This document shows, one piece after another, positions 6,768-36,064 of a stretch of DNA of 53,729 nucleotides. Made by a program: the position numbers and the translations under genes. The stretch lies in assembly GCA_946480815.1 (NCBI GenBank), contig CAMLLB010000025.1:1-53729 (forward strand), read 5' to 3'. This DNA comes from an uncultured Flavobacteriales bacterium (GTDB lineage Bacteria > Bacteroidota > Bacteroidia > Flavobacteriales > Crocinitomicaceae). The notes beneath the pieces were generated by a model. It did not search any database. It saw nothing but the letters and a program-made list of their open reading frames with translations, and was not told the origin of the DNA. Numbering within the stretch: position 1 is the first letter of the stretch; each line of letters opens with the position of its first letter.

Positions 6768-7121
6768 TTTTTCTTTTGACCCGATTCTGCCAAAAAACCT
6801 GGAATACGGTGCCTTTTGAGCAAAAGGGGGATCGAACTGATTGATTTCAGGAAACCGAATGAAATCGGTCCTTACGGAAGATTTGGGTTTTGCCACCCTC
6901 CTTAATCCTCCCTCGAGGGAGGAGACAGAATCGTAGCTTCGAACCGGGATTCCCCTCATTCTCATTCTCATTCTGTTTCTCGCTCTGAAAAAGAAGAGTC
7001 AGCCATGGCTGACGAAGACTGAGGCTTCGTCTTAAAAGACGAAAAAAGCCGATTGATAGCCAGAAAAACAGAGTGAGTGTGAGAGCGAGTATTGATGGAC
7101 AAAAAGCAAAAAAGCATCCAA
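6768..7121. other. Non-coding, palindrome-rich gap between the regulator and GIY-YIG gene
   Basis: No real gene is seen. Three palindromes stand out: TCCTCCCTCGAGGGAGGA (6906-6923), GTCAGCCATGGCTGAC (6998-7013) and TTCGTCTT-AA-AAGACGAA (7026-7043). CTCATTCTCATTCTGTT at about 6961-6977 is matched in inverted orientation near 7068-7090 (AACAGAGTGAGTGTGAGAG), giving an imperfect inverted-repeat element around the two central palindromes. Confidence 0.6.
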
Positions 7122-7373
7122 CTAAGTTATGACTCCTTGTTTTCGAAGAAAATTTTTTCCTGCTGTTGACTTCAGATATTTTTCACGCTTTCGTGCTAAT
7201 GAAGTTTCTCCGACCTCTTCCGAATAAACCAATTTCCATGGAACAAATGATTTTGTATAAGCAGATTTCCCTGAATTGTGTTCTTTTAGTCGGGCTTCAA
7301 CTTCTTGTGCCATTCCCACATAAAATGATCCATTGAGCTCACTTTGTATTACGTAGACTGAATAGTGTTTCAT
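7122..7373 (-). CDS. GIY-YIG domain protein (UPF0213/YhbQ-like size)
   Basis: The 83-residue product is a single GIY-YIG domain. YSVYVIQSELNGSFYVGMAQ is the GIY...YVG core, followed by the conserved RLKEHNSGKSAYTK with the catalytic-type Arg and the PWKLVYSEE strand, and a C-terminal KREKYLKSTAGKNFLRK helix. The family includes many small stand-alone proteins with presumed but mostly untested nuclease activity; similar proteins are frequent and often multicopy in Bacteroidota. It is on the same strand as and downstream of the tRNA-Phe gene and its tandem repeats. Confidence 0.88.
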   Translation of the reverse strand: MKHYSVYVIQSELNGSFYVGMAQEVEARLKEHNSGKSAYTKSFVPWKLVYSEEVGETSLARKREKYLKSTAGKNFLRKQGVIT

Positions 7374-7418
7374 TGAATGAATATACCGAAAAGATCTTAA
7401 TCTCTAAAGAGATGCCTG

Positions 7419-7550
7419 TGGTGATGGAGGGAATCCCTGCCTGACTGCGTCATGCAGACAGGGAACCCCGCGGCACAGTAATCGAAAATCCTTGTGTCGG
7501 GGGAATAGGGAATAAAAAAAAGCTCCAGAAATAATCCTGGAGCTTCCGAG
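7419..7550 (-). repeat. tRNA-Phe-derived tandem repeat, distal unit (132 bp)
   Basis: On the tRNA-coding strand this unit ends in the 3' part of tRNA-Phe (GATTCCCTCCATCACCA) followed at its other edge by the same terminator hairpin found after the tRNA. A 27-bp segment, 7436-7462, splits what would be the T-loop. Positions 7484-7503 match tRNA positions 7701-7720 exactly over 20 bases, but in inverted orientation. It differs from the neighbouring unit by about four substitutions and two one-base indels. Confidence 0.9.
7513..7545 (-). terminator. Terminator hairpin inside the tandem array (second copy)
   Basis: On the reverse strand AAGCTCCAG-GATTATTT-CTGGAGCTT is followed by a run of T. It is identical in its stem to the terminator directly after tRNA-Phe and is carried as part of the repeat unit. 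Confidence 0.75.
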
Positions 7551-7680
7551 TGGTGATGGAGGGAATCCCTGCCTGACTGTGTCAAGCAGACAGGGAACCC
7601 CGCGACACAATAATCGAAAATCCTTGTGTCGGGGAATAGGGAATAAAAAAAGCTCCAGAAATAATCCTGGAGCTTCCGAG
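7551..7680 (-). repeat. tRNA-Phe-derived tandem repeat, tRNA-proximal unit (130 bp)
   Basis: Immediately downstream of tRNA-Phe. In tRNA sense, after the terminator, it carries an inverted copy of the anticodon/variable part (19-base exact inverted match, 7616-7634 to 7702-7720), then TTGTGTCGCGGGGTTC (close to tRNA TTGTGTCGGGGGTTC), a 27-base insert (7568-7594) that folds CCTGTCTG/CAGGCAGG, and then GATTCCCTCCATCACCA exactly as in the tRNA. Thus it is a tRNA 3' half interrupted in the T-loop by a hairpin. Reading frames through it are artefacts. Confidence 0.9.
7644..7675 (-). terminator. Rho-independent terminator of tRNA-Phe
   Basis: On the reverse strand a 9-bp stem AAGCTCCAG/CTGGAGCTT with an 8-base loop is followed by seven T. 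It starts six bases after the tRNA 3' end and should end the tRNA-Phe transcript before the repeat's tRNA-like part. Confidence 0.85.
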
Positions 7681-7753
7681 TGGTGATGGAGGGAATCGAA
7701 CCCCCGACACAAGGATTTTCAGTCCTTTGCTCTACCAACTGAGCTACATCACC
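7681..7753 (-). tRNA. tRNA-Phe (GAA)
   Basis: The reverse strand folds as a complete 73-base tRNA: acceptor GGTGATG/CATCACC with discriminator A, D-arm GCTC-AGTTGGTA-GAGC, anticodon arm AAGGA-CTGAAAA-TCCTT with anticodon GAA, and T-arm GGGGG-TTCGATT-CCCTC. CCA is not encoded beyond the chance ACCA of the acceptor. A TATCTTTG box (7771-7778, reverse strand) lies 17 bases upstream. Confidence 0.95.
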
Positions 7754-7770
7754 ATCCTCAATTGCGAGGG

Positions 7771-7778
7771 CAAAGATA
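7771..7778 (-). promoter_or_regulatory. -7 box TATCTTTG for tRNA-Phe
   Basis: Exact TAnnTTTG match on the reverse strand, 17 bases before the first tRNA base. The 92-bp gap to coaX thus carries two back-to-back promoters. Confidence 0.6.
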
Positions 7779-7832
7779 GTAATAGAATTCATTACTCCTA
7801 AAAAAAAGTGAAAATTTTTCTAAATCAATCCT

Positions 7833-7840
7833 ATCTTTGT
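7833..7840 (+). promoter_or_regulatory. -7 box TATCTTTG for coaX (leaderless)
   Basis: Exact TAnnTTTG match ending six bases before the ATG at 7846, so the transcript would start at or next to the initiation codon. The TTG inside this box can be mistaken for an upstream start codon. Confidence 0.6.
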
Positions 7841-7845
7841 TCCTG

Positions 7846-8595
7846 ATGGAGCAAGGAATTAAATCAATTGTAGTCGATGCCGGAAATACCCGGATCAAAG
7901 TTGGCCTGTTCCAAGATTCTAGTTTACAAGAAGTTCATGCGTTCTCCAATGACGAGTTGGACAAACTGAAGTCCTACTTGCTGAAGCATAAAACTATTCG
8001 CGGAATTATCAGCTCGGTGCGCTCGGATAAGAACACCAAATGGATCAAAGGACTGCTTCCGAATGCCATTTTGTTCACTAATCAATTGGCTGTTCCGCTC
8101 ACCAATAATTACGAATCCCCGAATACGCTCGGAATTGACCGATTGGCAAATGCGATTGCTGCAGCCAATATTTCGGAAAAAAATGCGTTAGTGATTGATG
8201 TTGGAACCTGCATCAAGTATGATTTTGTCCGTTATCCTAAAATTTATGAAGGCGGAAGTATTTCCCCCGGAATTGAATTAAGATACCGGTCGATGCACCA
8301 GTTTACAGGAAAATTGCCCCTGATTGAAGACCGGATCCAGGGACCATTCCTTGGAAAAAACACCCTGGATGCCATGCGAAGCGGTGTGATGAACGGAATG
8401 CATCTGGAAATGGTGGGTTTTATCGAAGAATATCGGAGACTTTACCCGGAATTAACAATTTTTCTCACCGGTGGTGACAGTCAATATTTTGAATTAGGTA
8501 ATAAATATGGCATATTTGCCGACGAGAATTTGACCTTAAAAGGATTATTAATAGCGCTTTTACATGCCCAAACATTTCATTCTTCTAGTATTTAG
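7846..8595 (+). CDS. coaX: Type III pantothenate kinase
   Basis: CoaX phosphorylates pantothenate, the first step of coenzyme A synthesis, in the cytoplasm. The 249-residue product shows the family motifs in order: the N-terminal phosphate loop VVDAGNTRIKVGLF, the TLGIDRLANAIAA region that carries the GxDR motif, VIDVGTCIKYDFV with the catalytic Asp, GGSISPGIELR, and the C-terminal IFLTGGDSQYF. Length is normal for the family. The ATG at 7846 is chosen; a TTG nine bases upstream belongs to the promoter box. The last 32 bases overlap the start of the outer-membrane protein gene, so the two are probably co-expressed. Confidence 0.95.
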   Translation: MEQGIKSIVVDAGNTRIKVGLFQDSSLQEVHAFSNDELDKLKSYLLKHKTIRGIISSVRSDKNTKWIKGLLPNAILFTNQLAVPLTNNYESPNTLGIDRLANAIAAANISEKNALVIDVGTCIKYDFVRYPKIYEGGSISPGIELRYRSMHQFTGKLPLIEDRIQGPFLGKNTLDAMRSGVMNGMHLEMVGFIEEYRRLYPELTIFLTGGDSQYFELGNKYGIFADENLTLKGLLIALLHAQTFHSSSI

Positions 8596-35853: not shown

Positions 35854-35896
35854 AAAAAAGAAAAGAGCATCACTCACGTAATGCTCTTTTCTTTTT
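35854..35896 (-). terminator. Strong terminator hairpin after the tRNA-Gln-derived copy
   Basis: AAAAAGAAAAGAGCAT and ATGCTCTTTTCTTTTT form a perfect 16-bp stem with a 10-base loop (CACTCACGTA). On the reverse strand the stem itself ends in a T-rich run. It is the second terminator downstream of tRNA-Gln. Confidence 0.8.
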
Positions 35897-35946
35897 GTTG
35901 ATCCGTCAGCTGACGGACTCAACCTAGACTCTCCTGAACCAAAAAC
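35897..35946 (-). repeat. Degenerate tRNA-Gln 3'-half copy carrying a palindrome
   Basis: In tRNA sense this reads TTTTGGTTCAGGAGAGTCTAGG (one mismatch to tRNA-Gln positions 36012-36033 over 22 bases), then, where the T-loop and acceptor should be, a palindrome TTGAGTCCGTCAGCTGACGG-ATCAA (35898-35922, one bulged base). The architecture parallels the copies after tRNA-Phe. Confidence 0.8.
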
Positions 35947-35989: not shown

Positions 35990-35991
35990 TG

Positions 35992-36064
35992 TTGACCCAC
36001 TAGGGCTCGAACCTAGACTCTTCTGAACCAAAATCAGACGTGTTGCCAGTTACACCATGGGTCA
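35992..36064 (-). tRNA. tRNA-Gln (TTG)
   Basis: The reverse strand folds as a 73-base tRNA: acceptor TGACCCA/TGGGTCA with discriminator A, anticodon arm TCTGA-TTTTGGT-TCAGA with anticodon TTG, and T-arm CTAGG-TTCGAGC-CCTAG. The D-arm (TGGTGTAACTGGCAACA) is the form usual for bacterial tRNA-Gln. Confidence 0.95.

Follow-up and report, generated by a model that had tools for sequence, protein, structure and literature searches.

The two tandem tRNA-derived units 3' of the tRNA-Phe gene in the window, i.e. the whole 53,729-nucleotide stretch of DNA from an uncultured Flavobacteriales bacterium that was analysed, are probably ORF-less derivatives of a mobile GIY-YIG element specific for tRNA genes, a reading to which we assign a probability of about 0.78. 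The complete element is best read as an intact tRNA, a terminator, a GIY-YIG ORF, a displaced partial tRNA carrying a palindrome and a terminator, an order that appears from comparison of loci. The same comparison of sequences establishes a preference for tRNA genes, patchy occupancy of an orthologous tRNA, tandem arrays of ORF-bearing and ORF-less units and a conserved presumed active site. Mobility would be driven by the nuclease, with the tRNA as its presumed cleavage target.

All pieces named in the preliminary description of the locus were present: two tandem units of about 130 bp that both contain a terminator, a 19-20-base inverted tRNA copy without mismatch and a 27-base hairpin separating TTC from GATT in the T-loop (Table 1). 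Each unit runs from the terminator through ATTCCCTATT, the inverted tRNA piece and GATTA to a near-copy of the tRNA segment preceding the T-loop, the 27-nt hairpin and GATTCCCTCCATCACCAC, the tRNA 3' end. Aligned with each other, the units show four substitutions and two one-base indels. Looked for elsewhere with up to three mismatches allowed, the hairpin occurs window-wide in these two units only, and 100 shuffles yielded none. The extent first proposed, 7419..7753, proved too short at its distal end because the GIY-YIG ORF (7122-7373) belongs to the same feature. The window copy is degenerate: its ORF is found past the two units and lacks a remnant of its own. In an alignment, the ORF runs directly into the right half of a terminator of the type found in L001, the last remnant being gone, and no third terminator copy was found beyond unit 2. 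The kinase gene beside the tRNA-Phe is 94% identical to the Fluviicola chungangensis kinase gene, by which the window belongs to Fluviicola or close to it. An Rfam search of 6800-8000 gave, apart from the tRNA, only matches under the curated score and no known RNA family; no intron family matched this span at E 1 and the tRNA-Phe is uninterrupted, which speaks against a group I intron with a homing nuclease. The second tRNA of the window, a tRNA-Gln, is followed by its own terminator and then by a broken copy of its own 3' half, and therefore the phenomenon is not confined to one locus.

Table 1. Coordinates of the features at the tRNA-Phe and tRNA-Gln genes of the window.
Feature	Position	Strand	Basis
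tRNA-Phe (GAA), intact	7680..7753	minus	ARAGORN; Rfam tRNA 76.6 bits
Unit 1, without ORF, 130 nt (terminator, spacer, inverted piece and 3' remnant of tRNA-Phe bearing the T-loop palindrome)	7550..7679	minus	
Terminator hairpin, unit 1	7645..7675	minus	
Inverted copy of tRNA anticodon-arm/variable/T-stem segment, 19 nt exact, unit 1	7616..7634	minus	
Palindromic insert, 27 nt, between TTC and GATT of T-loop, unit 1	7568..7594	minus	
ORF-less unit 2, 132 nt, layout as unit 1	7418..7549	minus	
Terminator hairpin, unit 2	7515..7545	minus	
Inverted copy of tRNA segment, 20 nt exact, unit 2	7484..7503	minus	
Palindromic insert, 27 nt, T-loop, unit 2	7436..7462	minus	
GIY-YIG endonuclease ORF, 83 aa, presumed mobility protein	7122..7373	minus	Pfam GIY-YIG 1e-15
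Distal junction, right half of the terminator directly 3' of tRNA-Phe in F. chungangensis (L001)	7100..7119	minus	alignment
tRNA-Gln (TTG), second tRNA of the window	35991..36064	minus	
tRNA-Gln 3'-half remnant with palindrome TCCGTCAGCTGACGGA (35902-35917), unit without ORF	35896..35944	minus	

The ORF product belongs to the GIY-YIG superfamily by its Pfam match (1e-15), its conserved Tyr, Tyr, Arg and Glu, and its fold. These residues (Y7, Y18, R28 and E64), which we take to be the catalytic residues of GIY-YIG nucleases, are invariant in an alignment of 16 hand-chosen members (16/16). The AF2 model (pLDDT 95.8) has its best PDB matches in UPF0213 (E 5.5e-4) and Slx1 (E 5.9e-4), followed by a weaker match to I-TevI (0.24). 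The GIY-YIG domain occupies residues 4-73 of the 83, and there is no separate DNA-binding domain of the kind that SegB-like free-standing homing endonucleases carry beside the catalytic domain. I-TevI, too, is described as having a separate domain beside its catalytic domain (PMC2988022). According to the titles of its PDB entries, Slx1 processes branched DNA, which makes a structure-directed action of the window nuclease on hairpins plausible. A viral origin of the feature was considered and is not supported: neither the neighbouring kinase gene nor the exact palindrome insert had a match in IMG/VR, and only 13 of 50,697 phage records matched the protein at 1e-5, each with less than 60% identity.

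At 1e-5, the window ORF matches 105 of the 150 genomes of the family, with no match in the closest named relative (G001). A profile of the 16 members matches 181 of 296 Bacteroidota genomes at 1e-12, one of which holds at least 18 matches. The flanks of 74 family matches in 49 genomes, and of the 30 best-scoring loci in the phylum, were examined for tRNAs. Adjacency in the family loci was defined as an intact tRNA on the same strand, at most 400 nt upstream or 120 nt downstream of the ORF. By this rule a tRNA adjoins the ORF in 51 of the 74 loci, where about 0.26 would be expected (assuming 45 tRNAs per 3.3 Mb), and adjacency does not fall with E-value rank (15/25, 20/25 and 16/24). Twenty-five of the best 30 phylum loci have a tRNA, 17 of them within 400 nt upstream and eight others within 150 nt downstream. 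Eleven amino-acid types are represented among the intact tRNAs beside related ORFs. Near the remaining 23 family matches there is no intact tRNA; inspection by eye revealed remnants or contig ends at many of them, an ORF inside another gene at four (L103, L108, L109 and L128) and no remnant at two (L153 and L163). A location-unbiased set, consisting of the window and 79 loci fetched for the kinase gene (803 kb), was searched with the profile and yielded seven GIY-YIG matches, one of them a fragment (L048). All seven lie within 900 nt downstream of tRNA-Phe and on its strand; 3.2% of the strand-bases fall in this zone, and the orthologous sites are not fully independent.

Other GIY-YIG arrangements were seen among these loci. 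A related clade lies near tRNAs in L140, L145, L156 and L003 with no broken copy detected or visible; its proteins carry a C-terminal extension and measure 103-113 aa in the three that were translated (L145 is the same locus as L005, and L143 the same as L078; they are used in different counts). The ORFs of L103, L108, L109 and L128 form a subfamily flanked by the inverted repeats CCCCGTTAGAAAT / ATTTCTAACGGGG, both arms of which are altered together in L103 (CCACG / CGTGG); the gene hosting these ORFs is, we presume, possibly a transposase. In L163, the GIY-YIG ORF has no tRNA and lies, by eye, between the long inverted repeats ATCTCGGCTCGCGCTCGAT and complement.

Occupancy of the orthologous tRNA-Phe beside the kinase gene is patchy, with a GIY-YIG match in 7 of 56 loci, the window counted. 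Location at or close to the DNA target and patchy presence there are traits of SegB-like free-standing homing endonucleases, and the element shows them in these 7 of 56 loci and in the 51 of 74 matches next to a tRNA, its presumed target. In L053 the tRNA-Phe is followed directly by the terminator, and the site is empty. L058 has an ORF-less unit (terminator, spacer and T-loop-broken 3' end) between tRNA-Phe and a similar terminator, and in L078 ORF-less and ORF-bearing units form an array that precedes such a terminator. In the 799 bp beyond the site L058 shares 98.7% identity with L078, and over 8.1 kb of the locus the two share 80.5%; L053 and L078 are 76.0% identical across the locus. The profile search found no GIY-YIG gene in L053 or L058. 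A clean single copy is present in L036, and arrays read directly contain five ORF units at a tRNA-Asp and three at a tRNA-Ser. In the related Fluviicola genome G003, two tandem ORF-less units lie 3' of a tRNA-Cys (L243), each composed of a terminator and a tRNA-Cys 3' half broken by TCCCGCATGTGCGGGA, which is the window layout minus the inverted piece. Remnants and arrays are not all independent of each other.

Searched with both units (E 0.01), five of seven relatives gave only a 20-nt match, which falls inside a tRNA in the three relatives comparable, and two gave none. Six of the 150 family genomes scanned with the units had a match. In G134, G028 and G120 it is the T-loop-broken tRNA-Phe 3' half, and a GIY-YIG ORF is present in L085, L086 and L088, the profile search having found none in the second G120 locus (L092); the remaining matches are an isolated palindrome in G027 and the terminator hairpin in G128 and G148. 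A set of 59 tRNAs was formed from the two of the window and those in 40 regions of G003 and G006, regions that hold part of the tRNAs of these genomes. Fourteen of the 59 have a partial copy within 500 nt, the copy in L258 being nearly full length and some matches only 16 nt long. Two Rfam tRNA matches (G006:C5:17848-17972 and G006:C16:223845-223965) are 121-125 nt long, which exceeds the normal length, and may be tRNAs with inserts. Within the tRNA-Phe of L006 the assembly has a stretch of Ns, which may be a collapsed repeat of the tRNA-remnant kind.

These occupancy patterns bear on the idea of a domesticated function, by which the 3' remnants would serve the nuclease mRNA or the tRNA operon as signals for processing or termination, or as decoy RNAs. 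A strong predicted RNA fold of the 284-nt stretch 3' of the tRNA-Phe (z = -7.6, with 0 of 200 shuffles equally low) fits such a role, as does the observation by eye that several ORFs have their stop codon supplied by the remnant or palindrome. We nevertheless consider a domesticated function improbable, given that orthologous sites are patchily occupied, that no such units were found in the seven near relatives searched, and that the tandem arrays and ORF-less forms look parasitic.

Behind the ORF, a partial copy of the same tRNA was found in 29 of the 47 loci with an upstream tRNA, compared with 12 of 541 trials with mismatched tRNAs. In a mirror class, where the only near tRNA lies downstream, a 5' tRNA piece precedes the ORF in all four loci. 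Fragments of tRNAs left by integrated elements are described as common in prokaryotes (PMC9897764), and the window units could in principle be attL/attR-like 3' fragments that a tyrosine-integrase island or a phage left at tRNA-Phe and into which hairpins were inserted later. However, mirror-class loci hold 5' and not 3' fragments, at many isotypes fragments are repeatedly accompanied by GIY-YIG ORFs and palindromes, and none of ten neighbouring ORFs tested with Pfam matches an integrase (two had no match). With no integrase match among these ten ORFs and 5' fragments in the mirror class, integrase scars were rejected as the main cause, and we regard them as a very improbable one. The preliminary description had held that a known integrative element or IS end at this tRNA in related genomes, yielding the same pieces, would speak against its reading. 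That objection applies in part, since an element in relatives does yield the same pieces and resembles neither a known integrase island nor an IS.

Hairpins are frequent in the broken copies. Of 38 remnants collected by a local-alignment rule (eight were compared with a tRNA from another locus, and L114 is probably an intact neighbouring tRNA), 29 contain a perfect stem of at least 7 bp, compared with 4 of 38 intact tRNAs and 22 of 452 control spans; for stems of at least 6 bp the counts are 32/38, 5/38 and 82/452. The stem-length test was chosen after the outcome of an earlier alignment test for hairpin inserts, which picked up only 4 of 39 remnants, since an arm is often replaced by a palindrome of similar length. 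By eye, most palindromes start with TCC and end with GGA. A strict TCC-stem-GGA motif is found downstream in 30 of 74 loci versus 28 of 2054 control windows, and fifteen other end triplets gave 0-11. The view of the T-loop as the target holds in part: hairpins were seen by eye in the T-loop for Phe and some Leu, and elsewhere in relatives, i.e. in the anticodon arm or variable region for initiator Met, Asp, Asn, other Leu and some Arg, and in the D-arm for other Arg, an Ala and an Asn. Remnant T-arms scored 0.86 against their own hosts and 0.75 against others, with 47 of 54 others reaching the lowest own value.

Double-hairpin inserts with unrelated stems, a common linker (GAGTCCT) and TCC...GGA ends were seen in the remnants of L116, L117 and L136. 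A double-hairpin type with CTGAC...GTCAG pairs was seen in Ala, Asn and elongator-Met remnants (L131, L133, L135, L138, L157 and L251).

Hairpins and tRNA fragments might also stem from two processes, with GIY-YIG genes duplicating tRNA pieces and REP-like palindromes inserting alone and surviving only in useless copies. The behaviour of the tRNA-Gln palindrome lends this some weight, as TCCGTCAGCTGACGGA was found at 79 sites spread over 30 of 150 genomes, in many cases away from tRNAs, and is therefore a dispersed repeat in its own right; a control palindrome of the same composition was found in 0 of 150. Ten of 30 inspected loci with TCCGTCAGCTGACGGA have a predicted tRNA, in one case without an assigned type, and several other sites lie, by eye, in the loop of a longer hairpin. 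Like REP sequences, TCCGTCAGCTGACGGA is thus the same palindrome at many scattered sites. Unlike it, the tRNA-Phe insert has only similar sequences in a few genomes, with few sites in G027. Three G027 loci (L087, L093 and L095) contain close variants of the window CCTGTCTGC...CAGTCAGGCAGG palindrome with no predicted tRNA near, some of which may be coding. In the 803 kb, TCC..GGA hairpins number 67 versus 20 in one shuffle, which is weak evidence of dispersal because AGC (49 versus 14) and AGG (44 versus 7) hairpins show a matching excess. Against two separate processes, most remnants hold a hairpin, frequently at a position shared within the isotype while the stem is retained or exchanged (Met, Asp and Phe, by eye), so that a hairpin integral to the element fits better than chance insertions. 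We therefore judge two processes to be unlikely, if still a reading to be reckoned with.

For comparison of the nucleases with their targets, a protein tree was built from 68 proteins (67 of the 74 matches and that of the window) over 89 columns, with proteins cut at 100 aa and with six ORFs shorter than 70 aa and one repeat copy left out. Target labels were assigned by eye from the flanks for 19 loci (two among those left out) and four further rows. The target label changes 22 times on the tree, with three unlabelled rows counted as a group (20 times without them), against a shuffled mean of 48.0, and 0 of 200 shuffles were as low; the genome label changes 23 times on the same tree. Asp, Asn and the set inside another gene form single groups, initiator Met nearly so, and Phe and Arg change four times each, while the labels Ala, Leu and elongator Met lie scattered, 29-37 of 500 shuffles being as low. 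The window ORF falls into a supported group of five, all at Phe (97/94), on a tree in which many forks are uncertain at 89 columns. On this tree, nuclease subfamily largely corresponds to tRNA isotype.

In the proposed mobile element, the nuclease would cut or nick its tRNA gene, or a cruciform formed there, and repair would copy the element in, duplicating the 3' part of the tRNA along with the terminator; at mirror-class loci the 5' part would be duplicated instead. With the tRNA end duplicated, one tRNA would stay functional. The palindrome at the border of element and tRNA would inactivate the other copy and would protect that copy from a second cut and from recombination that removes the element. 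Tandem units could then arise by unequal recombination between the duplicated tRNA ends, and loss of the ORF would leave units of ~90-130 bp, such as those in the window. The inverted tRNA piece is most readily understood as a palindrome copied from the tRNA itself through a template switch. The preliminary description thus came near in suggesting a selfish palindromic element that targets tRNA genes, and it overlooked the GIY-YIG nuclease gene, which is likely the autonomous part.

Template-switch palindromes and tandem slippage after the stable tRNA hairpin might even have produced the units with no element at all. The exact inverted tRNA piece in both units looks like a template switch, and in L003 and L005 the terminator hairpin 3' of tRNA-Phe is, by eye, lengthened in a similar manner by the inverted tRNA 3' end. 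Replication error alone leaves the adjoining nuclease ORFs and the isotype-linked subfamilies unexplained and is highly unlikely as a full account; it may be the source of the inverted piece alone.

A broader and more speculative possibility, which we advance tentatively, is that the Slx1-like single-domain GIY-YIG nuclease and the TCC-hairpin-GGA palindrome form a new bacterial transposition system. The nuclease would recognise hairpin or cruciform DNA (tRNA genes, terminators and palindromes), the palindrome would be the element end, and the same activity would scatter ORF-free palindromes in Bacteroidota. If true, this would provide the mobility enzyme that very small palindromic repeats have so far lacked.

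Among known systems, the 178-bp repeats of E. coli tyrT, which give rtT RNA, are tandem repeats 3' of a tRNA that hold its 3' end; we know of no nuclease gene or palindrome in them, and rtT had no match in the Rfam search of 6800-8000. In fungal mitochondria, the homing-endonuclease ORFs (mORFs) of Allomyces atp6 duplicate the 3' end of their target gene. There, too, a nuclease ORF enters a gene that remains functional through a duplicated end, although the genes concerned are protein-coding and mitochondrial. The closest known system is SegB, a phage GIY-YIG free-standing homing endonuclease beside tRNA genes that has been linked to breaks in sequence containing tRNAs and to homologous recombination that amplifies the tRNA-segB segment in tandem, and an association with tRNAs is reported to be widespread in phages (PMC13096335, PMC2988022). 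As far as these accounts describe it, SegB resembles the window element in combining a GIY-YIG nuclease adjoining tRNA genes with tandem amplification. It differs in being a phage system, whereas the window element is chromosomal and encodes a lone catalytic domain of ~80 aa, and the available portions of the SegB accounts mention no palindrome-broken partial tRNAs, isotype-linked subfamilies or ORF-less units (PMC13096335, PMC2988022). Fragments of tRNAs in prokaryotes are ascribed in the accessible account to CRISPR spacers and integrating elements (PMC9897764). A search of titles and abstracts in the open-licence literature, with subscription papers and preprints mostly outside its range, found no description of a tRNA-invading GIY-YIG element with broken copies among the entries inspected, and its novelty is provisional.

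The findings point to a tiny and abundant selfish element that resides at essential tRNA genes and leaves them functional, and many odd tRNA fragments in Bacteroidota genomes could be footprints of GIY-YIG elements and not integrase scars. Short palindromic repeats whose mobility is poorly explained also gain a candidate enzyme with relatives of solved structure, which makes the question of palindrome mobility directly testable. Among bacterial small dispersed repeats, REP/RAYT likewise comprises short scattered palindromes; RAYT is a Y1 transposase, whereas the protein associated with window-type palindromes is a GIY-YIG nuclease. Mitochondrial GC clusters, double-hairpin elements and RHEs of yeast, Allomyces and sponges are described as short dispersed palindromes of unexplained mobility, and intron endonucleases have been proposed as helpers in the movement of GC clusters (PMC4478555, PMC2800124). 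On the DNA side these mitochondrial palindromes are similar to ours, but the window-type palindrome goes together with a recognisable nuclease gene at tRNA genes.
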